Assembly (NCBI GenBank): GCA_949752735.1 | Contig: OX457036.1 | Coordinates: 17,036,933-17,100,932, forward strand | Source of the DNA: Lumbricus terrestris | Taxonomy: Eukaryota > Annelida > Clitellata > Crassiclitellata > Lumbricidae | Reading direction: 5' to 3' | DNA: 64,000 nt | Shown: piece by piece, positions 35,012 to 63,200 of the stretch | How positions within the stretch are numbered: the first letter of the stretch is position 1 | Layout: every line of letters starts with the position of its first letter | Program-made: the position numbers and the translations under genes | The notes under the pieces: model-generated | What the model was told of the DNA's origin: nothing | Database searches by the model: none | Seen by the model: only the letters and a program-made list of their open reading frames with translations

Positions 35012-35109
<98 letters not shown>

Positions 35110-38100: not shown

Positions 38101-41100
38101 GTTAAATGACTGAATCCGGTACGAGATATCTCGTACTGGGCGGTGAACGTGTTACGAGGTTAAATTAATCGGTAAGCAAATAACGCTCAGAGTTCATGAA
38201 GAGTCAATCTGGCAAACCTCTGCAGGTGCATTGAAGTCAGCCAAAGAATTTATATCCAGAGTTAATGGTAGATGCCTTGTTCAAAGCTTAAAGTGTGGCA
38301 GGATGGTGATGGACGGCGTCCAGGCACTTATTTTCAAATCTAGATACTGTCCTGCCACTTATTTGGCCAGCACAAACTGAAAAGCCGAGGGGCGTCCAGG
38401 CACTTCTTTTTTGACACTTTAGTCACTGGTCTTTTTCATATAATGTGAACAAGCCAAAACCATTGTGTAAACTCTGCATAGCGACCAACTATTTTCTGGC
38501 AAATGACATTCTAGCGAATCTGTGACTGTGCGGCCTTGTTGACCATGTGCACCGAATATCCACTTACGTAGACTAATGTATTTTATTGTTTATTATTTAT
38601 TTATTTATTATGCATTTAAACAGTCTCTCTCACATAACAGTCTTACCATTAGGCACTGTTTGGTTTATTCATAGTTTTTCTATTGTTGTTGAAGTTTTTG
38701 TGAATTGTTTCTTTGGAACTTTCATTTAGACATCTAACTAAAAATTATTGTCTCACTCTGCTTCATGTTTGTGCTTGAGTTAATCATAATGAAGTTCGTT
38801 ATCTTTTTTATCATAAATAGTAATTGCTTTGTAGGTGGGCTAGAATGCACCGTATGTGAGATGGTCGTTCAGTATTTGGAAGCACTCGTGGAAGAAAACG
38901 CAACGATCTCTACGCTTGAGAGTGCGCTCGAGAAAGTCTGCAATTTCCTTCCAGACAAGTTTAAATCAGAGGTACAATGATGTAGTTTATTCGCATATTT
39001 TTTAATGATACTAATTTTGTTTCAAGGTATATATATTTTTGTTGAAAGAGGTGCTTAAAATGAATAATTGTTGCTCGACTATGTAAATGTATTGTGCAAT
39101 TCGATCTATATTGCGTTTAATGCATTGATTACATGCCATTTGATAGAGGTGCTATATACCGTTGTGGTCTTCAGTATTGTTATACAGAGAGGATGCCATA
39201 GTTATGAAGTGTTGGCGACTTCATTTTCTTAGCCTCAGCATACGAAGGTAAATATGACAATCTGGAAATCTCGGTGGCCAATTACGGATTTAAATCCCAA
39301 AACTCTTGGTTGACAGTTGGTCACTGGACTATCACACGACTCTGCATAACAAAGAGAATAACTACTTTTTCTGTTAAATAGTGTTATTTTCATGATATTT
39401 CGCTGTCATCATCATCATCATCATTGCTCTCCTCCATCTGGCCGCGCCGACGATGAGGCTTTTACATGGCGTCTCCACACTGCTCTATCCTTGATGATAT
39501 CCATGGCTTTCCTCATATCCATGTGCCTTTCCTCTAGATCTTCTCTTATGTTGTCGATCCATGTTTTCCTTTGACGTCCTCTACTTCTCCGTCCCTTCAC
39601 ATTGCCATGCAGAGCCGCAGCTGGCAGTCTTCTGTCGTCCTCGATACATGTCCAAACCACGTGAGTCTTCTCTTCTTGATTTTGTCCACTATTGTTTCCT
39701 CCGCTCCCAGTTCCTCTCTGGTCTTCACATTTCTGATCCTTTCCCTTCTACTTCTGCCCAGTATTCCCCACAGCCAGCTCATTTCGGCCACTAGTAGTCT
39801 CCTTTCGTCCTCCTTGCGAAAGCACCAGCACTCCGATCCATAAAGCAGTACCAGCACTACCAAAGCTCCATACAATCTCATCTTGGTTCTTGTCGACACG
39901 CTTTTTGATTTCCACACCTTGCTCAGGCGACCAAACATCGCACATTTCGCTGTACCATGAGTTAATCTTAATTTACGATTTTCAACTGTTGCAGTGTGAC
40001 TATGTTGTTGAAATGTACGGTGCGCTTGTGATTTCGTACATTACCACCGAGCACACTCCAAAGGAAATCTCTGTGAGGTGAGTAGCGTTAATAAACACGT
40101 CACACCCTCACAGGTTGTTCACAATTTGATGAAAGACAAGGATGACCCTCATTTTGTGGAATTGTTAACCCTTTAATGACGAGCTTGTACGAAATGTATG
40201 AAAAACAAATGCAGCTCGTTTTTAGGCCCTCCCCACACCTTCGGCACACCCGCGAAGTCTGCACACGAGGCCCGTCCAATTAAAAAAGGTCATCAACTTT
40301 TTTGAAGACACATAGCTAAAAAAAGGTCATCAGATTTTTCGGCAACCAAGACGAATACATTTTCCCTGCCCCAAGACCGAAAATTTTGGCCCCTGCCCTT
40401 TGAAAATTTCTGTGTCCGCCCTTGAGTAACACAGTTTAATGATCAAGTATTATTCGATGGTACTGAGTACCTATCAGTATGTGTGAGGACTAGATCTAGC
40501 TAGGTCCATATATAGAGATGAAACTGTAATTGGGTCGGTATCCAAAAAAGTCTGTTTTCTGTGACTTGAGTCAATTTTACTCGGCTCTGTTGCTCACACA
40601 CATATCAGAATTGAGTGATACCAGATGGTTCTTTATTCATTCAGGATCAAGCCCAGCTACAGATAAAAGACTTTAGTGATTTACGAAACACTATTTGATT
40701 GGTCAGAGGTATATGCAGAGCTCCGATGGAGGTCATTCCAAATGGAGCGTCCTGCCGCAGAGAAAGCTCGGTGTTGCCAAGCGGACACATGGAACTAGTA
40801 GTCCCCATTGTTGCTTTTTGATGTTTGACCACAGAAATTAAATTGAGATGACCATTTTATAATTGACATCTAAAAACGGTTTTGGGTACATTTTCTGTTG
40901 TGTACAGAAAGTTGGTGCGTGCTCAAATACGGTGAAGATGGCGATGATAACTGAAGCTAAAGAAGTGAAGACCTCTCAGAAGCTGCTTGGAGAGAGCGAA
41001 TGTACGTGGGGACCAAAGTTCTGGTGTGCTAGCAAGGAAAATGCTGCCAAATGCCAGGTATGGTGTCACACACAGGGCTGTTTTTAAGGAATTTTTAGAA

Positions 41101-41671
41101 CTGCACAGCCCCTTCTTTCCTTTCCCATCCTCCATGATAAATTACTTTCAATCGGCGAACAATTACCCTTTTTGCCTGTATTTAACTGTACAGATGTGCT
41201 TCTACAACTGCCCAAATGCATTTAGAACTGCACATTCTGTGTACAACTGCACGTTAAAAAAACCTTGGTTTCTTCTGTGGATTTACATAAAAATTAATCG
41301 CACTTCTGCTATTAATTTGTTTTTTCTGGAGCTGTCTTGCTTTTCCGTATCTATTTTGCATCTGATAAGCTTTTCATGCTTCTTAGCTGCACAGTTGAAC
41401 AAGTTGTTTATTGCACCGGTTAAGATCGTGTATATATATATATATATATATTTCCATGTAATGATTTTAAGTTGGATGCAAGGAGACTGATCACAGTTTC
41501 CTACCAAAGCGCTTGAGCAATTGTGCGTGAAGGACTTGCTCAGGGTCACTACTTGTCAGCTTGACTGAATTCAGTTGGATTATTGGATACTGTGGTGTGT
41601 GTTTTGTCTATTAATTTCTTTTTGGGTTTTAGGCAACAGTTTTCTGTGAGCAGACTGGATGGGATTTCTAA
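26246..41671 (+). CDS. PSAP: Prosaposin-like gene, copy B (complete)
   Basis: Tandem paralogue of copy A. Exons: 26246-26288, 27260-27390, 28183-28260, 28621-28686, 29657-29716, 30556-30663, 30821-30916, 31582-31644, 32748-32801, 33317-33430, 33721-33798, 34528-34590, 35365-35424, 35831-36025, 37569-37764, 38835-38971, 39995-40072, 40908-41057, 41633-41671. The predicted protein is 602 residues: signal peptide MLRFVVPLIALLTYG, SapA-N, five SapB, SapA-C. An in-frame TGA lies just upstream of the ATG. Differences from copy A: exons 9 and 10 are each two codons shorter and exon 14 two codons longer. Exon 17 carries a 2-nt insertion that I resolve with an upstream donor, at the cost of one SapB-5 cysteine. 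An extra cysteine appears in the linker before SapB-4. If the original exon 17 donor were used, the frame would hit a stop early in exon 18. Confidence 0.9.
26580..26870 (-). mobile_element. LINE 3'-end fragment in intron 1 of copy B
   Basis: Aligned paralogue of the element at 245-520; the minus strand reads LFHKASALKASLNR, typical of LINE ORF2 ends. Presence in both genes marks the insertion as older than the tandem duplication. Confidence 0.6.
27260..27390 (+). CDS. PSAP: Copy B exon 2: N-terminal saposin-A domain
   Basis: Same motif and length as copy A (CTFGESYWC, AKTCG, EHCK); a change to FEHC and a different end (QNEVLNP) separate the paralogues. Donor is GTTAGT as in copy A. Confidence 0.92.
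28183..30663 (+). CDS. PSAP: Copy B exons 3-6: saposin-B domain 1
   Basis: Exons 28183-28260, 28621-28686, 29657-29716 and 30556-30663 keep all six cysteines and the NKT sequon. Exon 5's donor region is tandemly duplicated (see repeat at 29717-29757). Confidence 0.91.
29020..29472 (-). mobile_element. Non-LTR reverse transcriptase C-terminal fragment
   Basis: The minus-strand translation, with stops, contains WPVATYGCGSWTIKKREED, then FRRVIRKKGDCLKRDL and finally a CT/GACAAAACAAGACAAGACAA-type 3' end. This is the post-palm region of a LINE. It lies in intron 4 of copy B and is absent from copy A, which has a different LINE in the same intron. Confidence 0.65.
29717..29757 (+). repeat. 20-bp duplication starting at the copy B exon 5 donor
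   Basis: GAGTCTTTTCAATGTGCAAT occurs twice in a row starting inside the donor of exon 5. The second copy is preceded by A instead of GT, so only the first is a usable donor. Copy A has a single version (GTGAGTATCTTCAATGTTC). It ends in an ATTA microsatellite. Confidence 0.85.
30821..33430 (+). CDS. PSAP: Copy B exons 7-10: saposin-B domain 2
   Basis: Exons 30821-30916, 31582-31644, 32748-32801 and 33317-33430. Six cysteines are retained. Exon 9 ends two codons earlier than in copy A, at TCT/GTGAGT, and exon 10 lost two codons in the KLKLKNSEF stretch. Both changes keep the frame. Confidence 0.88.
30974..31255. mobile_element. hAT-like MITE, CAGGGCTGAAAGTG family
   Basis: TIRs CAGGGCTGAAAGTG and CACTTTGAGCCCTG (the latter nearly the inverse of the former). 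Flanking 8-mers CCAGTAAC and CCTGTAAC match at 7 of 8 positions. Copy A's intron 7 keeps the empty site (GTGCCAGTAACTTGT near 6475-6490), which confirms insertion and its limits. The interior has GACTAAAAAAAGGTC and GACTAAAAACAGGGTCGTC. Confidence 0.88.
32130..32460 (-). mobile_element. LINE 3'-end fragment, intron 8 of copy B
   Basis: Begins with TTATATAGCACCCCTTCAAG and continues with CTTCTTAGAGGTGCTCCCAG, the inverted 3' end of the dominant LINE family. No intact frame. A TTCATTCATTCA tract just upstream is the element's simple-repeat tail. Confidence 0.65.
33721..35866 (+). CDS. PSAP: Copy B exons 11-14 (first part): saposin-B domain 3
   Basis: Exons 33721-33798, 34528-34590, 35365-35424 and the start of 35831-36025. 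Six cysteines; lacks the helix-1 sequon, as in copy A. Intron 12 contains the GT microsatellite and intron 11 carries a MITE. Confidence 0.9.
33878..34142. mobile_element. hAT-like MITE, CAGTGGCGTAG family
   Basis: Ends are CAGTGGCGTAGAC and GGCTATGCCACTG, with flanking 8-mers GTTGTGGC and GGTGTGGC (7 of 8 identical). Length 265 bp, with G-rich and C-rich subterminal blocks (AGGGGGG, ACCCCCCAACCCCC type). Located in intron 11 of copy B. Confidence 0.85.
35014..35108 (+). repeat. (GT)n microsatellite, about 45 units
   Basis: Uninterrupted GT dinucleotides in intron 12 of copy B. The same place in copy A (about 10760-10800) has only scattered TGTATG, so the array expanded after duplication. 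Confidence 0.95.
35963..37727 (+). CDS. PSAP: Copy B exons 14 (end)-15: saposin-B domain 4
   Basis: Begins at CMLC in exon 14 and finishes in exon 15 (37569-37764), with six cysteines and an NAS sequon. An extra NAS sequon appears in exon 15 (GVNAST). The preceding linker has a cysteine at about residue 361 (DPACEA) that copy A lacks (DPVREA). Confidence 0.9.
36026..37568 (+). other. Intron 14 of copy B, no recognisable feature
   Basis: AT-rich sequence with one pol III B-box-like GGGTTCAAAGG at 36295. No transposon ends, coding signature or long repeat was recognised. The matching copy A intron carries the CATGGGCGGAGACC MITE, absent here. Confidence 0.4.
38282..38428. mobile_element. Short hAT-like element, CAGGGCTTAAAGTG family
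   Basis: A 147-bp deletion derivative of the family at 22134-25672: left end CAAAGCTTAAAGTGTGGCAG, right end GACACTTTAGTCACTG, with the two subterminal blocks nearly joined. Flanks GCCTTGTT and GTCTTTTT match at 6 of 8 positions. Intron 15 of copy B. Confidence 0.7.
38835..40922 (+). CDS. PSAP: Copy B exons 16-18 (start): saposin-B domain 5, one cysteine lost
   Basis: Exons 38835-38971, 39995-40072 and the start of 40908-41057. A 2-nt insertion near the end of exon 17 changes GAAATTTGTGAG to GAAATCTCTGTGAG. The ancestral-position donor (GTGAGT at 40078) then gives a frameshift and stop; a GTGAGG donor at 40073 keeps phase 0 and yields KEIS-KVGAC instead of KEICE-KVGAC. The domain keeps five of six canonical cysteines, so one disulfide is broken. 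Transcript data would settle the splice choice. Confidence 0.75.
39403..39948 (-). mobile_element. Non-LTR reverse transcriptase C-terminal fragment with (ATG)n tail
   Basis: The minus strand encodes MRLYGALVVLVLLYGSECW, then RRLTWFGHVSR, then after a frameshift GRRSRGRQRKTWIDNIRED and AVWRRHVKAS. It ends in a CAT/ATG trinucleotide run at 39408-39424, the likely simple-repeat tail. Placed in intron 16 of copy B, antisense, absent from copy A. One frameshift separates two otherwise open halves. Confidence 0.85.
40218..40430. mobile_element. Probable MITE remnant with GGTCATC core
   Basis: Contains AAAAAAGGTCATCAACTTTT and CTAAAAAAAGGTCATCAG, the core shared with the other MITEs here, between GGCCCTCCCC and CCGCCCTTGAG. 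Aligned copy A sequence (about 16250) lacks it. I could not define exact termini. Confidence 0.5.
41001..41671 (+). CDS. PSAP: Copy B exons 18-19: C-terminal saposin-A domain and stop
   Basis: CTWGPKFWC, AAKC, then VFCEQTGWDF and TAA. Nearly identical to copy A, so this module is still under constraint or has been homogenised by gene conversion. Confidence 0.9.
41073..41267. mobile_element. hAT-like TIR element, CAGGGCTTTTTT family (inverted)
   Basis: Reverse-oriented third copy: starts CAGGGCTGTTTTTAAGG, ends ACGTTAAAAAAACCTTG. The copy A intron 18 lacks it (CACACACAGGCTGCTTAG at 17681). Right terminus mutated; target duplication not clear. Confidence 0.75.
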
Positions 41672-43460
41672 ACATCTGGAGTTCATCAGAAATTCAGAAA
41701 ACTGGAGGAAATTAATTGCCAACTTTCATATGTCTATATGTCTGCGTTCTTTGCAGCAACATTTCTTGGCCGGTTTAATTTCTTCCTAGCGGCAGATTTT
41801 TATGTCGAGATTTTGCGATTAGTTATAAAAACAAGAACTTCTCACTTGAGCTACAGCTGATGTAATATTTGCTACGTTTCTGGTTCAATATATTGTGCAG
41901 CTTCTTTACTTTCTTGACCTTGGTCACATTTGGATTTTTTAGGAAACTGCGTATTTCACAGTTTAGATTTACTCATAGGTTGTCCTGACACCCAATTACG
42001 CTGCATTTGAATATAATGACTCTGATAAGAAATTTGGAAATGTGATACGGAACTGTAATTGGACACGCGTTCAATACTTAATGTGAATGAGAATTTTTAA
42101 ATATAATCTTTTAGGATGAAATATCTGTTTGTATTATCTTAGTTTTGTTAACAATGACAGTAATAGAACGCTAATAACTGTCTGTGAAGATACTACATAA
42201 ATGCATCCATTATAGTATATTCGATTTAATTAGAATTTTTTAATCTTTCTCATGTTTAGGCATTAGTTGGTGATGGCCATTTGGTTAGGGCAGTTGATAC
42301 TGTTTTGTTTACTCAGTTGTGCTTCAAATAAGCTTTCAGGTTTAGTGCTGCCTTTTCACAGTAATTGGTTGAGTTTGCTGGCAAAAAAATAGTGCCGAAA
42401 ATTGTAAACCCATGGAGCCTGATTAAAAAAAACTGCCACACATGCCAAATTATTAGAAACACTTTCAACGCAAAAGGATATGGACTGTGGAGTCCCAGAG
42501 AACGAATGTGTCTGATTTGTGTTCTTAAAAAAATTGTGATAGTCTCCACACTGTCATGATGCTTATGCACTTTATGAGCTTTGTTTTCTATTGCTGATTA
42601 CAACATGTACTGTTAACTTTAACCTGTATTTGTTGCAATCTCAAGCATTGAAAACTGGAACATTCAGATGTTTCTGACTTTGCCAATTTGAGTTTACCGC
42701 AATTTAATTAAGAAACCATTGGATGTTGCGTGTACCAAGTTAGTTAAGCTGTGACGAGAGATAGAAATTTATTTGAATCAGGAGGATTAAAAATTTATTG
42801 TGTGAACAGTTTATGAATTTAAGTTGCTACATGTACATATACATCTGCTTGTAAAAAATGTGACTGTGTGATATGATCTGCAGAGATTTTAGCTCCAGAA
42901 ATTTCGGATAATTGCTTTGTTTATCTAAATAATTGATTGAATTATAATTATAATTTTAACTGTTTAAAAATTAACCTGAGTATGAGTAATGTCTTGGGAA
43001 GTCACCAGCTGCAAAGCTCATGTGAAATCTTTACTTTACAGTTGTAACACGAAATACCATTGCAAATATTCCTGTAATTTTGCACTGAAGGTGACTGTTT
43101 GAGTGGAAAGACTTAACCATAAAACACCCATAGACCGAACTCTTTGTGTTGATAAGACAATACCTGCTTAAACAGGATCTTTCAGTCATACGGAAAAATA
43201 AACTTCATTGGAAATATGTTACTGAAACTGATAGTGCACACCACATTGCAGGTTTTAAAAGTTGGATATTGACGATATTTCACTTTGTAATCCGGAAAAG
43301 TGAAAATCCGTAGATTTTTCGGTTGACTGTGGATAGTGCAAGCATGTAAGGGTATCATTTTTATGTATATTTGTAATTATTCTGGTTTGAGTAAATGTGC
43401 CGAGATTTTGGCTTTCTATAAATTTGTTTGTAAAATATAACAACAAATACAGGGTCTTTC
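41672..43460 (+). other. PSAP: Probable 3' UTR / downstream region of copy B
   Basis: Aligns over most of its length with 18579-20070 after copy A, with indels. It includes a stretch at about 42930-43255 absent from A and containing AATAAA at 43197-43202. No coding exon seen. The shared end near 43.46 kb and 20.07 kb is a candidate boundary of the duplicated unit. Confidence 0.45.
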
Positions 43461-43589
43461 ATTTTTCTATCTTAGTAGATTTGGTTTTGAGTTGGTATTT
43501 CTATTTGTAAGTTTCCCACATTTGAATTTAGTTGGTCCATGACATCTACTTCAGCATTTCGAGGGTGCCCTGTTATTGTATTGTATCTG

Positions 43590-45919: not shown

Positions 45920-46718
45920 TGTAGGACATTAGCCCCCCTGGACATTATCCCCCCCGGACATTATCCCCCCCGGACATTAGCCCCCCCGGACATTTTCCCC
46001 CCCGATTTTGCGTAGGACATTAGCCCCCCCGGACAAAGTCCCCCCCTATGTGCAAATCGTAGAATAATATTGGATTGATGAAAAAATGCAAGTTAAATAG
46101 AAGCTGGATGAAGGTATTTTTAGATCTGAAATAGAAGCTGGATTGATGAAAAAATGCAAGTTAAATAGAAGCTGGATGAAGGTATTTTTAGATCTGAAAT
46201 AGAAGCTGGATTGATGAAAAAATGCAAGCTAAATAGAAGCTGGATGAAGGTATTTTTGATCTTAAATAGAAGCTGGATTGATGAAAAAATGCAAGCTAAA
46301 TAGAAGCTGGATGAAGGTATTTTTGATCTTAAATAGAAGCTGGATTGATGAAAAAATGCAAGTTAAATAGAAGCTGGATGAAGGTATTTTTTGATCTTAA
46401 ATAGACGCTTTATTGATGAAAAAACGCAAGTTAAATAGAAGCTGGATGAAGGTATTTTTTGATCTTAAATAGAAGCTGGATTGATGAAAAAATGCAAGCT
46501 AAATAGAAGCTGGATGAAGGTATTTTTTGATCTTAAATAGAAGCTGGATTCATTTAACACAGGCCCATTGTTACATTTTGTGCATCATTTTAGGTAATGA
46601 TATCATAGACCGGGGGGGATAATGTCCTACCCCGGGGGGGATAATGTCCGGGGGGGCTAATGTCCGGGGGGGATAATGTCCGGGGGGGATAATGTCCAGG
46701 GGGGCTAATGTCCGTTTC
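45920..46718. mobile_element. Unclassified inverted-repeat element with GGACATTA-CCCCCCC arms and minisatellite core
   Basis: The left arm (45921-46048) carries five or more copies of GGACATTAGCCCCCC or GGACATTATCCCCCC; the right arm (46607-46713) carries about six copies of the inverse. Between them lies the 67-bp minisatellite at 46065-46552. Flanks CCTGTATCAG and CCTGTATCCAG look like a target duplication of about 8-10 bp. No coding capacity. Unlike the other elements, its terminal motif is itself reiterated. Confidence 0.75.
46065..46552 (+). repeat. About 67-bp minisatellite, seven copies
   Basis: Each unit is two half-repeats beginning AATAGAAGCTGGAT: one continues TGATGAAAAAATGCAAG, the other GAAGGTATTTTTGATC. 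Unit spacing measured between GATTGATG motifs is 67-68 bp. It is the core of the C-rich inverted-repeat element. Confidence 0.92.
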
Positions 46719-48994: not shown

Positions 48995-49093
48995 CTATGT
49001 TTTTCTTCTCGTAATGTGATCGTAGAGAACCACTTGGACGTACTTGGTCGATTCGATGACTGTTCGGGTGGAATTGTCACCTGGTGTTGCCAC
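48995..49093 (-). CDS. CFAP299: CFAP299 exon 6 (terminal)
   Basis: [35 protein letters not shown]. Acceptor after CCTGTTTCACAG. The ending VVxxDHITRRK is the family's C-terminal signature. Confidence 0.92.
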   Translation of the reverse strand: MATPGDNSTRTVIESTKYVQVVLYDHITRRKT

Positions 49094-52000
49094 CTGTGAA
49101 ACAGGTTTAGACAAAAATTAATCCAGGTAGAAATTATCTGGTAGATCTTGTCATTGATTATAAATTGCTTACTAGCGACTAGCATGTACTGATAATGGCA
49201 CCGAAAACCACATTGTAGTCAATTCCACGTCCAGAAAATTGTTATGCACACTAACTGTCATGCATACTAATTGTTATGTGTACTAATTGCTATGTATTAT
49301 AATTATATGTGCTAATTGTTGTGTGTACTAGGTGTCATGTAGACAAATTGTTTTGTATGCTAATTGTTATGTATACCAATTGTCACGTATATAATAATGC
49401 ATATGTATTATGTATACTAATTATGAAACTGATTATTATGTTTACTAATTGTTATGTATAGGCTACTAATTACTGTGTGTTGAGACACTTGCACCTTTTC
49501 AGTACCTCTCAAAAACACCGAAATCTTCTGCTAGGCATAAAACGAGGATCTGAATAAGTTTTTCTCTCTCAAAAAGATTATAATTATCAATTATGCTAAA
49601 ATATCCTTGCTGCACTCTCTCTGAAAAGATAGTGATTTCTGCATAATGAATTTCTATCAAGGTGATGTTAATACATTGATTTTTCCTTCATTGGATGTTT
49701 GATAATATACAGTAATCAAGTATTTACATTATGGAGCACAGTTATAGAGGATTCCTCTAGTTTGAGAATGCTTTAATTTTGGGGTCAACATTATAGAAGA
49801 CTCCCCTAGTTTGAGAATGCTTTCTTACCTTGGGTTCAACATTATAGAAGACTCCCCTAGTTGGAGAATGCTTTAATTTTGGGGTCAACATTATAGAAGA
49901 CTCCCCTAGTTTGAGAATGCTTTCTTACCTTGGGTTCAACATTATAGAAGACTCCCCTAGTTGGAGAATGCTTTAATTTTGGGGTCAACATTATAGAAGA
50001 CTCCCCTAGTTGGAGAATGCTTTAATTTTGGGGTCAACATCATAGAAGACTCCCCTAGTTTGAGAATGCTTTAATTTTGGGGTCAACATTATAGAAGACT
50101 CCCCTAGTTGCAGAATGCTTTCTTACCTTGGGGTCAACGTTGAGAATTTTGCGATCCCGTTTGTTCTTGAAAAGTAGACCTGACGCATTCTCAGCAATGA
50201 CCTGGTAGTTTGGGGTCGCATTGGACGTCGAAGTCTGGGTTTCCCAGTTATAGAAGCTGAACAGGAATAACAATTCTATTCAATCTATTGTACTGCACAT
50301 TGAATTTATATAGCACCCTTCAACTGTTTGTGCCATCCGAATTACTGCAGAGAGATCGGAGAAGAGACAAAATCAATTAAAAGATTGCTCACAAAGTTTC
50401 ATCTCTTACATCTGCATTTCTAAAGCTCTGAACCATACAGCAACTTTGCTTTGCTTACCATACCACACACAAAGATGCATAACTTACAGACTATGTACAC
50501 TATCCATCAAGTTATACGAAGTCTATCAAATGGGCTTGGATCTCTTTTTCATACCTCTGGAGTCTGGACAACCTTTTTTACTTGACGCAGCACTAATAAA
50601 CAAAAATTAAGTGGCACCCTAGAAATTTAGAGTAAACAAATTATGATTACAATTACCAAAATCTGCATGAATGCCACCTTGTGTCCTGCAATGCTAAAAG
50701 TATGTATGGCGGTTTCACTAAATAACTGAAGTGCTGCTTTATTTGTCGAATGCTACCTTGATACCGATGCCTTGAAATGCATTAAAGTAAGTAAATAAGT
50801 AAGTAAGTAAGAACATTCTTTATTAGACTACTAGAAAACACACTGTAGTTTATAGAAATTAATGAATGATCCAAATATAAGTTTCTTTAATTAGGTTCAA
50901 CGGTCATCTTAAATAAGGTCAGGCAGATCAGATTATAATTCGGATAGTCTGATTGGATTCTTAAATAAGCTTTTAGTTCATTAGGTAAACACTGGCAGAG
51001 ATTTCTTCATAGTGGATGCCAGGGCTGTACTGGTAAATTTAGAGGCGAGTATACGCTGACCGGAAGAAAAACCCGACCTGTTCGTCCCCGAAATTTCTGA
51101 CGACCTTTTTTTATTCATTGAGCCAAAATCTCATCCATTTGCCATCCGAAAAAAGCTGACGACCTTTTTTAGTCATCCAGCCAAAATTGTTTTCTGATTC
51201 CCTGATTTACTAGCGTGTACGGTGTACCCTCCTTTTTACCTGCGTATACCCTACTTTCCGGGAGGTGAGTATACAATACGTTTTTTGCCTGAGGTAAGTA
51301 TAAGCTGTAAGCTTATACCCTCGTGTACAGCCCTGGTGGATGATAAATCTCTGCATGAATTTACAAACTAAAATTTCACAGCTCTACCTGAGGTCGGTTG
51401 GTTTTGGAACGAGTCTTTTCTTTCCAGAGAAATACACCTCGAAATCTTCCACCTTCAGACGATGCGCGTAGTCTATGAAGCCGGATATTTCCTGACTACG
51501 TGGGTTCTTGTCCCGAATGAAAATTATCGTCTGCAAACAAGTTTTCATTCATAAAACTAAAACTAGAAGTGATATAACCTTAATTAATTATTGTCAATTG
51601 ATTGTTAATTATTGTCAATTGACATTTACTCTGACAAATGACAATAATTACACATGTAAAGCATCCTAGAAGTGGCTTGCTACTGACGATGCTATATAGA
51701 TTGTCTGAATTACAATTACAGCCTTATGACAGTCAATTCTGCTACAGAAGGTGCACACTGTGCACACACAGTGGCTGTGCAGGATGGTTAGCTGACAGTT
51801 AAAATACTTATCGAACAGAAATTAGCTATGAGATTTTGGATCCATTTGTACCACTTTGCCAACTCGGCTGCAATGAGTTTACCATAACTGTTGAAGAGAA
51901 GATCAAGTGGCAAGGGAGAGGATTGGATACCCATCCTCATATTCCAAATCTAAGAAAACTTCAGTCTGTAACACTTCATACTCGTAATTATATGTTGAAC

Positions 52001-54586
52001 TTAGCTTAAGGAATTGCTCCTATGTGCAAATTTATAAATGCAAAAAGAAACTAAAAAATCTTGCAGGTTTCATCTGAATCATTATTAATTGGTGTATTAA
52101 AGACTTGGTCAGGTTTTACCATATTAGACACAACTCCAAAGTTAGAGACAGCGATAGAGACAAACCAGCAGGTCATACATTCACTTGGAAATGTTTGCAT
52201 AAAAGCAAGGACAGGCATCAATCCACTTTCCACCCTCTTTCCACTAAACCACTTACCACCATCTTTCCAATAATCCACTTACCACCATCTTTCCACTAAT
52301 CCACTTAACACCATCTTTCCACTAATCCACTTACCACCATCTTTCCACTAATCCACGTACCACCATCTTTCCACTTCCCACCATCTTTCCACTAATCCAC
52401 TTACCACCATCTTTCTACTAATCCATGTACCTCCATCTTTCCACTTACCACCATCTTTCCACTAATCCACTTAACACCATCTTTCCACTAATCCACTTAC
52501 CACCATCTTTCCACTAATCCACTTACCACCATCTTTCCACTAATCCACTTACCACCATCTTTCCACTAATCCACGTACCACCATCTTTCCACTAATCCAC
52601 TTACCACCATCTTTCCACTAATCCCCTTACCACCATCTTTCCACTAATCCACTTACCACCATCTTTCCACTAATCCACTTACCACCATCTTTCCACTAAT
52701 CCACTTACCACCATCTTTCCACTAATCCACTTACCACCATCTTTCCACTAATCCACTTACCACCATCTTTCCACTAATCCACTTACCACCATCTTTCCAC
52801 TAATCCACTTACCACCATCTTTCCACTAAATCACTTACCACCATCTTTCCACTGCGATTTGCTTCTTCCCTCTGAGCGAGTGCAAGGAGCAGTGGCTCCC
52901 TGATATCTCTGCCAGCACTTGATAAGATCCTGCAAGAAAATCAATTGATCAGACTTCAGTATTCGTCTTTCATTTGAGTAGGCCGACAGACAAGAATGCA
53001 GCTCTTATTACATTGGTCAGTCTAATTACAAGTTCTGTGTGTGACCGGTAGGGGACGAAGACTTAGAAAGGGAGACAGGCCGGGATGGTCCCCTGAAATC
53101 TGTGGTGGAGGACGTTGTTGCTTATATCCATCCCCAGTATTTCAGATATATTTCATAAATAATTGTAATTGTACATTTATATAGCGCCCCTTCAAGAGAA
53201 CTCCTCAGAGGCACTCCCAACCTGATACCAAACCACAATCAAAGAGAACGGTTTTCAAACACTTGCGGAAAAGGGGCAAAGAAAGACAAAGATGTTCATT
53301 ACGGAGACTAATAGGTAACTTATTCCAGAAAGACGGACCGAATAAATATAAATAGCGTCATGAATTTCCACAGTTTTTCCACTGTTTATCCATAATGAGT
53401 AAAGTTGTTAAGATGACAGCTTAAAATTCTGCAATGTAGAAATGCAAAAAAATTTAAACAGTGGGGAGGAGGCACATCCCTTCCATAATCCCCTCCCAAG
53501 GTTGGTGCTTCGCACCTTGCGGATCGTCATTCGGATATTTATTCATCCCCCAAATCCAGGACAAAGTGTCTTGGTGACTGGTTCTGAGTTTAACAGAAAA
53601 GCATTCTTCGATCAATCAGGATTAATGCCATTTTCTAATTGGGAGGATCACTGCTAACATTGGCCAATTGTAAAAACACAGTACATACACACAGGAGACA
53701 TACGTACTGAAACTGTAATCATAAACTATAAACTTCCAAAGTGCAACTAGAAAGCCAAATACAAGGCACCAGCCAATTCATGAGTGCTGTGTCAAATCAG
53801 AATGGTTGTCAAAGGGTAGTTAGAAGGAGTCCAAGTCCGGCTTCCAGATGGTCAGACGGTGCAGAGCTCTGCTATTAAGGTTGGTGTCATTAGGTTGAGA
53901 ACTGGAATGAGGAGGATCAGATGAATCAGGATAGGAATTGTTCAAAAGGTGAGACTTCAGTTTTATAGGTATTCAGAGTGCAAGCAACAGAAACCTGATC
54001 ACACAGGGACCAATAAACAGAGACTGGCACGAACTTCAGTGAGACTTACTTCTGCTGACTTTTCTTGGATAGGCGACTAGCTTCTGCAGCAGCTTTGCGA
54101 GCTTCAAACTCTTCCCTCTTCAGGACTTCACCGCTTCCTCTGTAACCCAGCTCCACCAACTGCCGAGCCAACTCCTCATCCTTCACAACCACACAAGCAA
54201 GCAAACAATGTCATATGAACTCAGTCAAAAACAATATAACTATGCGCGCTACTGTGTTACACATTTTGTGCGATATTCAGACTTAAGGGCAGGACGTATT
54301 TCACGAAACCGGTGATCGAAATCACATATAATAAATAATAATCTTGTCAACAGAGTATAACACTAATGAACTATAAGCATACAGTAATAAAAAACATACA
54401 TTTATGTGGAGTTTTACACAACAAATTAAATAGCTGGTTTCGTGTGTTATTCTGAAACAATAGTTAAGGCCAACTAACTTCCAAATAGTAAAGATCGAGC
54501 GGCGTTATCTGAGAATCAAGAAATTCTTCGTAAGTGTTGAATTCTGTGACAATATTATCGCTCGCTCCAGCGGTTTCATCCTCCAT
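48995..54586 (-). CDS. CFAP299: CFAP299 (cilia- and flagella-associated protein 299), complete
   Basis: Six minus-strand exons: 54586-54479, 54180-54050, 52929-52839, 51530-51388, 50256-50127 and 49093-48995 (stop TAG). They join in phase into 233 residues, the length I recall for the vertebrate protein. Recognisable segments in order: [99 protein letters not shown] and [11 protein letters not shown]. An in-frame TAA lies 9 nt before the ATG. The family is found in ciliated eukaryotes and is linked to cilia and spermatogenesis; its biochemical role is not known to me. The donors of exons 3 and 5 are the origins of two minisatellites. It is divergent from PGS1, 930 bp between start codons. Confidence 0.95.
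49240..49480 (-). repeat. Degenerate tandem repeat, about 18-20 bp unit
   Basis: A dozen or so variants of ACTAATTGTTATGTAT in intron 5 of CFAP299. Units vary in length and sequence, so this is an old or fast-decaying array. It does not touch a splice site. Confidence 0.75.
49740..50126 (-). repeat. Minisatellite (49-51 bp, about eight copies) derived from the CFAP299 exon 5 donor
   Basis: Read on the gene's strand, each unit has AATGTTGACCCCAA (exon 5 end), the donor position, AAAGCATTCT, then CTAGGGGAGTCTTCTATA. Two units, with donor bases at 49823-49828 and 49923-49928 (window strand TCTTAC), keep AAG/GTAAGA intact. The others have the donor changed to AAAATTAAAGC, which destroys GT. The two states alternate at first, suggesting amplification of a two-unit block. 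Confidence 0.9.
50127..50256 (-). CDS. CFAP299: CFAP299 exon 5, abutting a second donor-site minisatellite
   Basis: Encodes [44 protein letters not shown]; ends CCCAAG/GTAAGA in phase 0. Degenerate copies of the last exon bases plus donor are reiterated in 49740-50126. Confidence 0.93.
50790..50815 (+). repeat. (AAGT)n short microsatellite
   Basis: TAAGTAAATAAGTAAGTAAG type tract in CFAP299 intron 4, five to six units. Confidence 0.75.
51020..51335. mobile_element. hAT-like MITE, CAGGGCTGTAC family
   Basis: TIRs CAGGGCTGTAC and GTACAGCCCTG, flanks GTGGATGC and GTGGATGA (7 of 8). Length 316 bp. Contains the inverted core GACGACCTTTTTTAGTCATC twice. Lies in CFAP299 intron 4 close to exon 4. 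Confidence 0.88.
51388..51530 (-). CDS. CFAP299: CFAP299 exon 4
   Basis: [47 protein letters not shown]; starts after TTTGCAG, ends CTCAG/GTAGAG in phase 2. The donor is slightly weak (GTAGAG). Confidence 0.93.
51830..51960 (+). mobile_element. SINE-body fragment similar to 62490-62640
   Basis: Shares landmarks CCAACTC-GCT-CAATGA, ACTGTT, AAGATCAAGTGGCAAGGGAG and a following CATCC/CCT block with the SINE-like tail at 62507-62600. No tRNA-like head is attached here. Confidence 0.45.
52221..52855 (-). repeat. 26-bp minisatellite (about 24 copies) built from the CFAP299 exon 3 donor
   Basis: On the gene's strand each unit contains AGTGGAAAGATGGTG, the last bases of exon 3, followed by GTAAGTGGATT, the first bases of intron 3. 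Most units keep a perfect GTAAGT; a few read GTACGT, GTTAAG or GGAAGT. The array starts exactly at the real exon/intron junction (52839/52838). Because 26 is not a multiple of three, each step to the next donor changes frame; every third one restores it. Confidence 0.95.
52839..52929 (-). CDS. CFAP299: CFAP299 exon 3, abutting a donor-site minisatellite
   Basis: Completes lysine and encodes [20 protein letters not shown] then [10 protein letters not shown]. It ends at GTG/GTAAGT, and that junction sequence is repeated about two dozen times downstream (52221-52855). The choice of the first donor is supported by phase 0 and by correct spacing to TIIFIRD in exon 4. Confidence 0.9.
53165..53345 (-). 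mobile_element. LINE 3'-end fragment in CFAP299 intron 2
   Basis: Begins TTATATAGCGCCCCTTCAAG and continues ACTCCTCAGAGGCACTCCCA, then decayed sequence. Sense of the element is minus. Confidence 0.65.
53725..54025. repeat. Dispersed repeat, uninterrupted copy
   Basis: Matches the split repeat at 45780-45915/46722-46880. Includes TAAACTTCCAAAGTGCAAC and GGTTGAGAACTGGAATGAGG. Likely a LINE 3' region; frame not preserved. Ends about 25 bp before the exon 2 donor of CFAP299. Confidence 0.6.
54050..54180 (-). CDS. CFAP299: CFAP299 exon 2
   Basis: [20 protein letters not shown] followed by a basic helix ([16 protein letters not shown]). Acceptor AAG just before GATGAG, donor AA/GTAAGT; 131 nt ending two bases into a lysine codon. 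Confidence 0.93.
54479..54586 (-). CDS. CFAP299: CFAP299 exon 1
   Basis: [16 protein letters not shown] then [20 protein letters not shown]; 36 codons ending in phase 0 at GAA/GTTAGT. The acidic variable start followed by the conserved FLDSQ-x-T-x-LDLYYLE is typical of the family. Confidence 0.93.
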
Positions 54587-58500: not shown

Positions 58501-61500
58501 ACTTCTAATGGAAAAACTGAGTCTTTGAGATGCTTTTAGCTTGATGGCCTTAAGAGTGAAAAACTTTTTGGAGGTACTGCAAACTACTCTCTATTAGTAT
58601 GGATATGTTGTATGACATTGCATATAAACATTTCTATTTTTCTGTAGCATATATGCTGGTAGTCTAATAAAGAATAGTTACTAGCTTACTTTCTAGGATC
58701 AGTTTTAGAAGTTAGTTCTTGTAGAGAAATTTGACTGATCAATGTAATTGTGCCAAAAAATTTAAGATAAAGGCTGTTTGGCTGAACTACGTTTTGTTTT
58801 ACTGTTTTAGAAATTGTCTCGAAACTCAAAGAAACGAATTGTGCTTGCATCTCTTTATTTAGGAACTGGGAAACTGGAACAAGAATTAGTAAGTGCAAGA
58901 CTTTTATTTGCAAGAATCCTGTGCTATTCAAGTGAATTCTTAGTGATGATATTTAGCATGCAGCTCTTGTGAGTCAAGAGTTAATGTAGAGCAGATCCTG
59001 ATTAAAGAAACCTTTCACCACTACCAATAAACTCTACCTCACTGTGCAGGAATGTACATTTTTTTGGTTAGCCCTATCTTGCTGTTAGTTGAATGTGAGG
59101 CACCCTTGCAACAGCTGTGTTTGGGCACCATGGAAATTGGCATAATTATTATTATTATTATTATTTATTATTATTATTACTGTCATGAATGTACAGATCA
59201 TCTGAAGATTAGATGGTAATATGGTGAGATAAATTGGTCTTTAGATGTCAACAAAGAGAATTTACGCCTTATTTAGTCATGTAAGGTCGTTTTACAAGAG
59301 ATTCTACAGAGAAGGCAGTTATTTGATGCAGTTTCTCTATTGTATTGTATTATAAATATTATTGTATTTAAGCAGTTATAATGGGTGAACTACTCAGAAG
59401 TGCTCCCATAATTAACTCTATAATTAACTATGTTATTGGTGAATTCAATGTTAATTAGTGATTCTTCATGGTACATGCATCATGACCTAAAATGAATCAA
59501 ACTTGCGTAAAGTCTGGTATGGTGTAAAATGTATATGATCTAAATTAAGGTCGTGCCTTGTGGAAAGTTCTATCTGTTCTCAATTCAGTGTCCTGTCTGC
59601 TTCTGTCTAGGTTGATTGCGTCTACGATGCCGCAAAAGTTTCACAAGACGATGGTGGTGACCTGAGGGTAAAGTTTCTTTTCGACTACATGCGGGGATCG
59701 CGGGGAGAGAAGAATTCTCGTACGATGTTGTTGCCGTTGCTGAGGGATTTTGGCCAGAAGGTGAGCGCTGCCCTCTACCACACCCCAGACCTGCGTGGCA
59801 TCGTGAAGCGAGTCCTTCCAGAGCGGTACAATGAAACGGTCGGAGTGTCACACATGAAGGTCTACCTGTTTGACGACACGCTCATCATGAGTGGGTATGT
59901 TTTGCTTATCATGAGTGGGTATGTTTTGCTCATCATGAGTTGGTGTTTTGCTCATCATGAGTCGGTATGTTTTTGATCAGGACAGTCATGTTAGGTCTAA
60001 TGTTATTTTTTTTATTGTATTGTTTGTGGCCATTTATAAAGTACTTCTGCCAGAAAAAAGCCTTGCAGAAGTGCTCCCAGTGCGATTGACCCTGAAGAAG
60101 AAGCAGGATTTGAGGTGCAAGAAGGATGAGGAAAGATTACCAGAGAGAAAGGCAAAGTCAACTGATAGTAGTGCAGGTAAAGCGTCTGGATTGAGCCATG
60201 ACAGTTCTGATGTTAGGTATGGTATAAAGTTAGGAATGGTCAAAAACTGAGGAATTATTTCAAAAGGCTTAGGTGAAGTGTAGAAGTTTTGCATTTAATG
60301 TATATTTACATAATGCAAGGTTCGTTGATTTCTTTACTGTATTTTTCACTCTGTCCATGTCTGACTTGCACCCTATCAGAATAAGGGATTAACAAGTTAC
60401 AACTGATTTAAGAGAATGCTTGCTGAAGCTAAACCGTCAATGGTAAAACTATGTACTATCAACCACAAGTGGTGTTACCAATATAAGAAGCTCTGAGGTT
60501 ATGACCCAAAATGAGGGGCACTTAACAGTGACTACAAAATTGAGTTTAGAATGAGTTTAGAAACAGTCTCAACTCGAAATACCCTGCCCAGTTCAGTCTC
60601 TGGTCATAGGAATGTAGACAGTCATGTTGCTTATGTTAAAATTGGAAATTCATTGTAATTAAGACGATTTAGCATGAGTTCGGATGATATCTGAGTCTAC
60701 AATTATAGTTATTGGTATTTTGAATTTTGTATGCGCCTCGACTCATTAATGAAGATCAATCTCTTGCATTAACTATCTTAGGAAAGTCTTGACAATTGTC
60801 AATTGTCTTTAACTCCTCTTTGTAGTGCCAATCTGAGCGAATTGTACTTTACTGAGCGACAAGATCGTTACGTTGTCATCAACCGTTGTCCTGCGTTGGC
60901 CGATTTCTTCGAAGAGGTTGTCACAGCCGTTTCGTCGTTGTCATTTCAACTGCAACCAGATGACAAGATCAGTTTATCATCCGATCTCCAGTGTCATCCC
61001 TTTCTTGGTTAGCAGTTTGGTTTTGAATTTTCGTAAGCATTATCTTGTGCTCATGAACATACATACACACACACTTACAAACATACACACCTGTATATAC
61101 TTATATGCGTAAAATAATTATTACAGTATTAAATGCTAGAAATGAACACAACTATTTCTATAATTGTTTGGGGCGGTTGAAAGCAATTGCACTTGAAGTG
61201 CACTTCTCTCTCATTTGAATCTGTTCAATTGGTGAACATAATTAAGCATGGTCTGTGTCTGCGCCTAAGTCGATTGTGTGCTTGCTATTTGTAAATGTGA
61301 ACTGTATTTGGGATGAAGAGAAAAGGTGATGATGATGATGACGGTGGTGGTGGTGGTGATCAAAATGATACCAAACTGGTTTTAGGTTCCAACAACGGCG
61401 TTACGTACAGGAACGAAATGAAGCGGATCGTAGAAGACGCAATCGCAAATCATCGTAATTTCAACGACTACACGAACAGTCGACTCTTGTCGCATGCAGA

Positions 61501-63200
61501 CGACTTCTGCGACGATTCAGAGGCTAGAGGTCACAGGTCAGAGTCGGTTGAAGGTCAGCAAGTGGACACTCTGATCTACCCGTTAGTACAGATGGGACCG
61601 TTTGGTATTAGACACGACGAAATCGTGACGAAGGCGTTGTTCGAAAAGGCTCTGCCGGACGTTACTATTTACCTTGCGTCCGGATATTTCAATCTCACGA
61701 ATCACTACATGAATTCGATCATAAAAGACTGCACAGCAAACTTTGAGATTCTCACGGCGGCTCCACAGGTAGAGTTTTCACACTGCAGAATCGTTGTTGC
61801 ATGAGTTGGACTTATTATTGGGCTCATTTTGTCTGTGTGGACTTTTGCAGTTATCTAGACCTCGTTTTCAGGTAGAGTTTTTACACTGCAGAATTATTGT
61901 TGAGTTGTCTCTGAATTGAACTCCTAGGCTGGGTTCTATTTGTGTGTGAGGGCATGCCGGTGGGTGACATTTCCAGCTATCTGGGCATCATCTCCTTATA
62001 TTCTGGTGTAGGAAATGCACAATAGTCAAAAGTCTACTGGTTAGCATGTGGACTGTCGATCGCATAGGCGGAGACCTGGGCCGAGAATTGGGGGGGACGG
62101 AAAGACGCGAGATTTTCCGAAAAATTTCTGACGACCGGCGAAATCTCGAAAAAAAATTCAATTTTTCGCCGCCAAAAAAAGTTGATGACCTTTGATGACC
62201 TTTTTTTTTTTTTTTTTTTTAGTCATCCGGGCCAAATCTCGACGAAATATTTCTATTTTCGCCGCCAAAAAAGTTGATGACCTTTTTTTTTTTTTTTAGT
62301 CATCCGGGCCAAATCTCGATGAAATATTTCTATTTTCGCCGCCAAAAAAGTCTTGACGCTCAAACATTGGGGGGGACAAATGCATGGGTCGTCCCCCTCA
62401 ACACTTTTATTGGGGGGGACCGTCCCCCCCTAGGTCTCCGCCCATGGTCGATCGAGAGGTCGGGAGTTCAAAGCCCTGTCAGGACAGAAAATTGGTTCTA
62501 GATTTTTGCTCCACCTCTAACCAACTCAGCTACAATGACATACACTGTTAGTGGAAAGATGAGATGACAAGGGAGGGGGCTGATCACCTGCCTTCAATGG
62601 CCGACACTTAAAGTACAAAGTTGCTAGCGCTTCATTTCCACGGCTGCCTTATGGTTATGGTTTACTGAAGGGACTACTCTTCTTCTTCCTATTAAATGTC
62701 CATTGTCCAGATACATATATGTCGAGTCCTTGGGCATATAATTGTCTTAACCGTTTAATGACAAGCTGCATTTATTTCCCATACATTTTAGTGTACGTTC
62801 AGCGGTAAAGCATTAAGGATTCAATAGCAAAAATGAAGCCTCCCCTTCATTCCTACAGGGGCATGCGAAATTGTCTTAAATACTCCGCTTGTACGTTAGA
62901 TAGATATTTTTCTGCTAATTAATGTGACAAATTGTCGTTTACTGAATGTGTTCACTGAATCTGTTCACTGTCAGGCAAATGGTTTCTTTGGTGCGTCTGG
63001 TGTGTCGGGAGCAATTCCAGACGCCTACACGTACATAGCAAAGCAGTTTTTCCAGGAGGTGTCCAGAACACGGCAAGCCCACCGCATTTCGTTGCATGAA
63101 TATTTTCGACCGAGATGGACGGTCCATGCGAAGGGTCTCTGGTACTACCTATCAGGTCACTCGCTTCCTGTTGCGACAATGATTGGATCACCAAATTTTG
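55517..63200 (+). CDS. PGS1: PGS1, CDP-diacylglycerol--glycerol-3-phosphate 3-phosphatidyltransferase (3' partial)
   Basis: Makes phosphatidylglycerophosphate from CDP-diacylglycerol and glycerol-3-phosphate, the committed step of cardiolipin synthesis in mitochondria. Exons: 55517-55572, 57941-58226, 58811-58888, 59611-59894, 60826-61007, 61386-61768, 62975-63200; later exons lie beyond the window. 498 residues are visible. Residues 1-18 (MSTCCRLLRRLPNIGVLL) are arginine-rich and fit a mitochondrial targeting peptide. FQWI opens the conserved part. HKD motif 1 is H221-x-K223-x4-D228 (HMKVYLFDD) and motif 2 is H474-A-K476 followed by GSPNF. SLYLGTGKLEQEL, GSRGEKNSRTMLLPLLR and DTLIYPLVQM are family landmarks. 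Intron 2 has a GC-AG boundary; the exon 4 and exon 6 donors are locally duplicated. The exon 1-exon 2 junction is the least certain. Confidence 0.94.
55955..56430 (+). mobile_element. LINE RT C-terminal fragment and 3' end in PGS1 intron 1
   Basis: Plus-strand pieces FVVSRLDYCSTLYHGLTGL, RLVGHIPKYSHGL, LVLQPGMASLL and the terminal TTGAAGAGGCGCCATATAAA followed by an ATGAATAAATAAATA tail. The order matches a LINE ORF2 end but internal parts are deleted. It lies in the sense orientation. Confidence 0.85.
57551..57629 (+). repeat. 40-bp direct duplication
   Basis: AACTTATTTTGAATGGTCAA through GGTGCATTGGCC occurs twice in a row with one mismatch. Intron 1 of PGS1, about 310 bp before exon 2. Confidence 0.85.
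57941..58226 (+). CDS. PGS1: PGS1 exon 2, ending at a GC donor
   Basis: Acceptor GTTGTAG at 57934-57940 is the only nearby AG that fits the exon 1 phase and avoids upstream stops. It encodes a variable region, then FRHFQWIGNITPCFSI, then DPNEFYEALK. The end is AAG/GCAAGG: the spacing from EALK to KKRIV in exon 3 equals that of the vertebrate protein only if this GC donor is used. Confidence 0.82.
58811..58888 (+). CDS. PGS1: PGS1 exon 3
   Basis: KLSRNSKKRIVLASLYLG then TGKLEQEL; 26 codons, phase 0 at both ends. Flanks TGTTTTAG and GTAAGT. Confidence 0.93.
59145..59181 (+). repeat. (ATT)n microsatellite
   Basis: About twelve ATT units with one TTTA interruption, in PGS1 intron 3. Confidence 0.9.
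59611..59894 (+). CDS. PGS1: PGS1 exon 4 with first HKD motif
   Basis: Contains GSRGEKNSRTMLLPLLRDF, YHTPDLRG, PERYNETVG and the catalytic HMKVYLFDD (H221, K223, D228). It ends AGTGG/GTATGT. The junction is followed at 24-bp steps by further copies of the same exon end and donor (59895-59975). Confidence 0.93.
59884..59975 (+). repeat. 24-bp tandem repeat spanning the PGS1 exon 4 donor
   Basis: ATCATGAGTGG/GTATGT recurs with identical phase at 59895 and 59919. A third unit has GAGTTG/GTGTTT and a fourth GAGTCG/GTATGT at 59965, the latter shifted by two bases. Using the donor at 59919 would add eight codons in frame. Confidence 0.9.
60010..60300 (-). mobile_element. LINE ORF2 C-terminal fragment in PGS1 intron 4
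   Basis: The minus strand reads LTSELSWLNPDALPALL then LSSSFLHLKSCFFFR, decayed from the ‘S-F-K-x-x-L-K-T-x-L-F' ending. It begins with the GGCCATTTATAAAGTACTTC variant of the 3' end. Confidence 0.65.
60826..61007 (+). CDS. PGS1: PGS1 exon 5
   Basis: Completes GANLSELYFTERQDRYVV, the segment after HKD 1, then ALADFFEEVV and a lipid-synthase spacer ending HPFLG. Phases 2 in, 1 out. Confidence 0.92.
61386..61768 (+). CDS. PGS1: PGS1 exon 6
   Basis: Starts GSNNGVTYRNEMKRIVEDAI. An acidic insert (DDFCDDSEARGHRSE) is followed by the conserved DTLIYPLVQMGPFGIRHDE and YLASGYFNLTNHYM. Donor CAG/GTAGAG, repeated 103 bp downstream. Confidence 0.93.
61766..61985 (+). repeat. Diverged tandem duplication starting at the PGS1 exon 6 donor
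   Basis: CAGGTAGAGTTTTCACACTG at 61766 is matched by CAGGTAGAGTTTTTACACTG at 61869, followed in both by CAGAAT-TTGTTG and later by TGTGTG...CAGYTATCTRG. The period is about 103 bp. The second donor is intact but out of phase relative to the first. Confidence 0.8.
62010..62690 (+). mobile_element. tRNA-derived SINE interrupted by a hAT-like MITE
   Basis: Left piece (to 62062) has an A-box-like TTAGCATGTGGACTG; right piece (from 62455) has a B-box-like GAGTTCAAAGCC, then a body shared with 51830-51960. Removing the MITE and one copy of GTCGATCG joins the two boxes at normal tRNA spacing. Confidence 0.6.
62063..62446. mobile_element. hAT-like MITE, CATGGGCGGAGACC family (inverted copy)
   Basis: Left CATAGGCGGAGACCTGGG, right CCTAGGTCTCCGCCCATG, with exact 8-bp duplication GTCGATCG at 62055-62062 and 62447-62454. 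It has two expanded poly-T/AGTCATCCGG cores, making it 384 bp against 289 bp for the copy at 12302. Confidence 0.92.
62975..63200 (+). CDS. PGS1: PGS1 exon 7 with second HKD motif
   Basis: ANGFFGASGVSGAIPDAY, then RPRWTVHAKGLWYYLSGHS with H474 and K476, then GSPNFG across the donor TTTTG/GTAAAC. In PGS enzymes the second motif lacks the canonical aspartate, as here. Confidence 0.93.

Follow-up and report, generated by a model that had tools for sequence, protein, structure and literature searches.

A 25-unit minisatellite across the exon 3 splice donor of CFAP299, with donor-spanning arrays at two other junctions nearby

CFAP299 and its exon 3 junction

We analyzed a 64,000-nucleotide stretch of DNA (positions 17,036,933 to 17,100,932 of contig OX457036.1, GenBank assembly GCA_949752735.1; hereafter the window, whose own numbering is used below), in which a 26-bp minisatellite lies across the exon 3 donor of the gene CFAP299. 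The repeat unit consists of the end of the exon and the start of the intron, the gene is intact, a single donor is productive, and arrays also lie at two other junctions of the window.

The minus-strand gene around the array was identified as CFAP299: exon 5 contains a PF14713 match, and the 120 matches listed, of 1754, share 76-87% identity with the joined product of exons 2-5. In tblastn searches, four orthologues marked out six exons from 54586 to 48998; joined, and with the stop at 48995 included, they give 702 nt (233 amino acids), with the frame intact and no inner stop. The exons, supported by the orthologue alignments and the intact joined coding sequence, are located (all on the reverse strand) at 54479-54586 (exon 1), 54050-54180 (exon 2), 52839-52929 (exon 3; 91 nt, ending AAGATGGTG/GTAAGT, the slash marking the splice junction), 51388-51530 (exon 4, starting TIIFIRD), 50127-50256 (exon 5, ending NVDPK/GTAAGA and also supported by the PF14713 match), and 48995-49093 (exon 6 with the stop); exon joining leaves an intron 3 of 1308 nt (51531-52838, reverse strand). 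At the exon 3/4 junction nine orthologues read SGKM, then TT or TS, then I, and the window reads SGKMV/TIIFIRD. We placed the exon 3 donor at GTG/GTAAGT (52839/52838), because a donor at ATG/GTGGTA would cost the protein one residue. The true intron 3 donor GTAAGT therefore occupies 52833-52838 (reverse strand), and is the only one of the 21 GT-bearing donors in the array with a full-length outcome.

Anatomy of the 26-bp array

Tandem Repeats Finder (TRF) reports a 26-bp tandem array of 24.0 copies at 52220-52853; by unit matches it contains 25 units on the reverse strand, the first of which overlaps the end of exon 3. A search of the whole window for AGTGGAAAGATGGTGGTAAGTGGATT at no more than three mismatches gave 25 matches, all inside the array and on the minus strand (0.00 expected from shuffles). 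Each unit corresponds to 15 nt of the end of exon 3 plus 11 nt of the start of intron 3, and the coding sequence is intact across the junction. The initial annotation had recognized the gene, the exon number, and the junction-spanning unit, all borne out by the orthologue alignments, the intact coding sequence, and the unit anatomy; the tandem array that it drew at 52221-52929 is real, but 52839-52929 is exon 3.

The exact 9-mer GTGGTAAGT (GTG/GTAAGT) is found in 17/25 units, and the GT is kept in 21/25 and lost in 4/25, so the two dozen near-identical GTAAGT sites first proposed come down to 17 exact ones. The altered hexamers that keep GT are GTAAGG, GTACGT (two units), and GTACAT; those without it are TTAAGT (two units), GGAAGT, and GAAAGT. 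With units delimited at a fixed anchor, 22 of the 24 spacings are 26 bp and two are 18 bp; we attribute the two smaller ones to 8-bp deletions between short AGTGG direct repeats. Units 2-8 are identical, with changes confined to the intronic part of unit 1 and to units 9-25; therefore, the part of the array next to the exon seems to be the most recently grown or homogenized. Departures from the consensus are seen in unit 1 and in units 23-25, and units 1 and 24 have one base in common that is absent elsewhere, the usual sign of edges escaping homogenization.

Changes are more frequent in the donor hexamer (9/150 positions) than in the rest of the unit (8/480; Fisher P = 0.008, with changes shared between units not corrected for). 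This bears on one of three roles first proposed for the array, a landing platform for the U1 small nuclear ribonucleoprotein (U1), in which GTAAGT repeats are kept to recruit U1, either for exon definition or for suppressing premature polyadenylation. The exact donor 9-mer in 17/25 units would suit such a platform. Were it maintained, however, one would not expect the donor to be where the unit has changed most, and we consider the platform very unlikely.

Beyond the array, the window has a lone GTGGTAAGT at 45747 (forward strand), beyond all mapped exons, and the 12-mer AGTGGAAAGATG has a single outside match, at 62550, which we take as chance. We also considered the unit as a dispersed element and rejected this: a DNA search with the array through the whole genome (1.056 Gb, 331 contigs) gave 19 matches, one being the locus itself, and the seven of the other 18 that were examined (L002-L008) all prove to be low-complexity arrays, with GTGGTAAGT absent from both strands. 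Three of these (L003, L005, and L006; G000:C19 near 33541000) belong to a purine-rich array that exceeds 3 kb and has a 13-bp unit, GGAAGAGGAAGTG.

Predicted products of the downstream donors

When the 21 GT-bearing donors were joined one by one to exon 4, the complete protein resulted from donor 1, and all 20 downstream donors led to a stop at codon 119 or 120. The stops arise because donor 2 forms a TGA with exon 4, and because the second unit supplies a TAA in the frame of exon 3. The expectation that every third donor keeps the frame is thus correct arithmetically, but in practice 20/20 downstream donors end prematurely. Such mRNAs would be expected to decay, since two exon junctions still lie beyond the stop with donor 2 and three with each later donor. 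The “decoy donors” of the initial annotation describe what the downstream copies would be if used, each giving a truncated frame. In 16-nt windows, the predicted U1 pairing energy of the true site is −9.9 kcal/mol. Exact copies, at −10.2, pair as well as it does, and altered copies range from −4.8 to −8.5 kcal/mol; between the true site and its exact copies, therefore, position and not strength must pick the donor.

These products also bear on the possibility that the array works as a rheostat, part of the transcripts splicing downstream, carrying the stop, and decaying, so that array length tunes CFAP299 output. Splicing from any downstream GT-bearing donor would indeed run into a stop at codon 119-120, before exons 4-6 have been read, 16 downstream donors have a 9-mer identical to that of the true donor, and human IFI6 offers a reported precedent for repeat units that serve as donors (PMC4526556). 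On the other hand, the donor hexamers are altered more than the remainder of the unit, and the comparable lancelet arrays known as mirages are reported without aberrant mRNA (PMC3087553, PMC3902484). We regard a rheostat as unlikely.

Two further donor-spanning arrays in the window

A second minisatellite (TRF; 49742-50138, reverse strand) starts from the donor of CFAP299 exon 5, with eight copies of a 49/51-bp unit. GTAAGA is kept in copies 1, 5, and 7 and gone in copies 2, 3, 4, 6, and 8, these five of eight having the same lost donor form in common, which also counts against a U1 platform. Both later intact donors lead to a stop at codon 225. Several predicted open reading frames (ORFs) continue past the same DPK position as if into the intron of exon 5; among the 120 listed of 160 matches to the read-through ORF of exon 5, we found no second array-bearing sequence.

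The third array is in a neighboring PGS1-like gene on the forward strand, where gene mapping placed an exon at 59611-59894 that ends LFDDTLIMSG/GTATGT; TRF reports four copies of a 24-bp unit at 59880-59973, each made of 15 nt of exon plus GTATGTTTT. The donor at +24 is in frame and would add YVLLIMSG, and the donor at +70 shifts the frame and leads to a stop. Two relatives, P0147 (93% identity over 37% of the query) and P0126 (79% over 61%), read IIMSG and then continue without an array; because both show an array-free junction, the array is probably derived. By eye, YVLITAVMFGL in P0147 resembles the sequence that follows the array in the window.

Elsewhere in the PGS1-like gene, the donor of exon E (CAG/GTAGAGTTTT) recurs ∼100 nt downstream as a dispersed copy, CAGGTAGAG, from 61869 (donor and copy together at 61766-61902, forward strand); the copy has only the CAG of the exon in common, and was not scored as a spanning array. 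Exon A seems to use a GC donor (CTCAAG/GCAAGG, 58226/58227), and a 13-bp repeat of 2.6 copies (62937-62970) stops just short of the exon F acceptor (62974) without spanning it.

The recurrence of one anatomy at three junctions is relevant to the reality of the arrays. The copy number of such arrays is often wrong in assemblies, and the CFAP299 array could in principle have been created or stretched during assembly; we judge this to be the least likely of all explanations and highly improbable, since the window lies in a 98.9-Mb contig (suggesting long reads), the differences among units are structured, the flanks are not repeats of the unit, and the same anatomy appears at three junctions.

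Frequency of arrays at donors

The 19 donors mapped in the window comprise five in CFAP299, six in the PGS1-like gene, and eight in two prosaposin-like genes; 10 acceptors were mapped, none of them in the prosaposin-like genes. A copy of the junction is found within 700 nt for 3/19 donors and 0/10 acceptors, against 1142/22793 non-exonic positions (5.0%), and the position-based test of donors against this background gives P = 0.067 (0.073 and 0.053 at two other settings). Donor-like GT sites have a nearby copy in 27/366 cases, and against these the 3/19 donors give P = 0.16. Counted by arrays, 3 of 21 (hand-merged) span a donor, with 0.24-0.51 expected for 19-40 donors (P = 0.002-0.015, or 0.02-0.09 without the index array), edge-based tests of this kind resting on a window that was picked for one of its spanning arrays.

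We then turned to samples of the genome. In a 200-kb sample (20 stretches of one contig) there are 108 arrays with a period of at least 10, covering 15,071 bases, and none of the 108 carries a strong donor motif (shuffle mean, 0.85), a further point against a U1 platform. Three occurrences of MAGGTAAGT with gaps of 10-40 gave 217 matches in the genome (141+76), against 524 (442+82) for the backward pattern; the matches overlap and represent a smaller number of arrays, and none of the three window arrays, whose donors are GTGGTAAGT, AAGGTAAGA, and TGGGTATGT, would be caught by the pattern. Among 20 donor-motif loci taken from the 217 matches for inspection, L034 is a clear donor-spanning array with a 32-bp unit in a Wnt gene (PF00110, E = 2.3e-9); in L044, what looks like the end of an exon is followed by repeats that contain only the beginning of the intron; and L032, L035, and L047 are possible donor arrays without a Pfam match. 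No exon was seen ending at the array in the remaining 15 of the 20, for example in L037, where the array lies within an intron, behind an exon-like frame.

A second sample consists of 80 dynein exons with 160-nt flanks, drawn from 116 dynein family matches. Repeats touch the donor side in 11/80 and the acceptor side in 1/80 (sign test P = 0.006); some match ends are domain ends, not exon ends, and after these are dropped the counts are 10/74 and 1/72 (Fisher P = 0.009). Random anchors are touched in 228/2987 cases (7.6%), compared with which the donors give P = 0.054 and the acceptors P = 0.031. Because acceptors fall below random anchors, the asymmetry is at least partly a lack at acceptors. 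The dynein sample does not show a donor-linked process. By eye, none of the 80 dynein donors is spanned by an array (1.0 expected at the random first-unit rate of 78/5973); a script flagged one, L073, in which by eye the placed GT sits in an intron array and the exon ends earlier. Window and dynein donors pooled give 3/99 (P = 0.14), or 4/99 with L073 (P = 0.041), or 2/98 without the index donor (P = 0.37). One dynein heavy chain match (G000:C7:34616184-34617164, reverse strand) lies within a 3569-codon open frame, unlike the other listed matches; it could be a retrocopy, foreign DNA, or a contaminant.

Strong enrichment at donors was therefore rejected, given the position-based P of 0.067 and a dynein sample that did not repeat the window result. 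Donors seem enriched for arrays when the window is taken by itself, but the genome samples show roughly no excess of donors over random positions, the outcome that the initial annotation had itself named as contrary to a general process. A process that makes tandem duplications at donors, such as transcription- or splicing-linked breakage, would fit the spanned window donors (3/19 against 78/5973, P = 0.0018), the array count, the Wnt array elsewhere in the genome, and the dynein donor side (11/80 against 7.6%). The 0/80 spanned dynein donors and the pooled P of 0.14, the position-based values and the comparison with donor-like GT sites, the 217 donor-motif triples against 524 backward, the 0/108 random arrays with a donor motif, and the weaker array test without the index array all stand against it. 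Attraction of repeats to donors by such a generator is not supported, and we hold it to be improbable.

Other repeats in the window

The two prosaposin-like genes (1-20164 and 26488-43552) form a tandem segmental duplication whose introns can be aligned at ∼70-90%. A 31-bp array at 16739-16986 (eight copies) aligns to a single stretch at 40422-40480; therefore, arrays here grow or shrink fast. A tandem duplication at 13729-13994 (140-bp unit, 1.9 copies) is very recent, judging by its 100% matches. A transposon-like element at 45921-46714 has 81-nt inverted arms of 16-bp GGACATTATCCCCCCC repeats (99% complementary) around a 68-bp minisatellite of seven copies. Three fragments (4094-4474, reverse strand; 7449-7910, forward strand; and 39421-40040, reverse strand) have translations that resemble ends of non-LTR (long terminal repeat) retrotransposon reverse transcriptases.

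Comparison with known systems

Tandem repeats across exon-intron boundaries, called mirages, have been described in the amphioxus genes for Adh3 (with units of 10-72 bp), the globins BflGb6 and BflGb9, troponin C, and PGBD5 (PMC3087553, PMC3902484). They are reported as possibly general in cephalochordates, of unclear origin, and apparently without disturbance of splicing, and have been modeled as seeds of new introns. As in these mirages, the CFAP299 unit crosses the exon-intron boundary, the splice signal has survived in many units, though not in all, and the array is homogeneous inside with divergent edge units. Unlike the mirages as there described, 25 units lie at one donor, one gene has two arrays, and the next gene has a third; and unlike the globin mirages, which include acceptor-side arrays, none lies at the 10 mapped acceptors of the window. 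As in the Rogers model of intron gain from AGGT proto-splice sites, outlined in one of these sources (PMC3087553), tandem duplication copies a splice signal, but there is no sign of a new intron here.

The CFAP299 of the window is 83% identical to that of Branchiostoma, which is itself 93% identical to those of Diadema and Asterias. In a CFAP299 tree of 44 rows (one slow protein, with one lancelet sequence), the window sequence is placed beside P0002, in a poorly resolved part, and not with Branchiostoma. Judged from these comparisons, the host probably lies outside the cephalochordates, the described host range of mirages.

Turri, Cuin and Porter reportedly described, in Nucleic Acids Research in 1995, a minisatellite in human IFI6 (6-16, G1P3) that supplies multiple splice donors, which the CFAP299 minisatellite also presents. 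Two downstream repeat units of IFI6 are reported to be used as donors, with three mRNAs made (PMC4526556); unlike this, no downstream donor of the CFAP299 array gives an intact frame. As for in-frame use of the IFI6 type, 20/20 downstream donors of the exon 3 array are predicted to reach a stop, and the +24 donor of the PGS1-like array is predicted to stay in frame. No array at CFAP299 is described in the literature we searched, none of the searches being aimed at that gene. The CFAP299 array is a known, little-studied kind of repeat in a new setting: striking, and not categorically new.

Probable origin and tolerance of the array

We consider it likely that the CFAP299 array is a mirage minisatellite, a tandem duplication that spans the exon 3 donor, has grown to 25 units, and would be tolerated through use of the first donor. 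A short tandem duplication would by chance have spanned the donor, and slippage or unequal exchange would have expanded it to 25 units. The spliceosome would take the first (exon-defined) donor, and the remaining array would be removed with the intron, close to neutral. Downstream donors, when used, would lead to the stop at codon 119-120, and the mRNA should undergo nonsense-mediated decay; because such frames would decay, later copies may lose their donors freely or under mild selection. Arrays may persist less well beside acceptors than beside donors, presumably from constraint on the branch point and pyrimidine tract just within the acceptor. Among the three proposals of the initial annotation, a tolerated slippage product is best supported, by the array-free PGS1-like relatives, the three different junctions, and the absence of spanning arrays at the dynein donors.

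Several points weigh against this account. We infer the use of donor 1, and in human IFI6 downstream repeat units are reported as used donors (PMC4526556). The test for donor decay counts changes that may be shared by descent; if every kind of change is counted a single time and unit 1 is set aside, there are six donor and six other changes (P = 0.038, for a target of 6/26). Finally, the spanning rate at window donors is above the random first-unit rate (also without the index donor, P = 0.023), which a purely neutral account does not predict, although one of these donors was the reason for choosing the window.

Implications

The choice of a 5′ splice site among identical neighbors is usually studied in built constructs. 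The CFAP299 locus offers many identical, regularly spaced donors in a native gene, with one productive outcome and two arrays adjoining. A more ambitious possibility, which we put forward as doubtful, is that the locus is a natural experiment: 17 donors with the same 9-mer would compete with the outermost alone productive, the hexamer changes would record selection against decoys, such arrays would be a fossil record of first-donor strictness, and array length would act as a heritable control over the proportion of poison transcripts. Repeated exon ends of this kind may mislead gene predictors, and mirages probably extend beyond lancelets.

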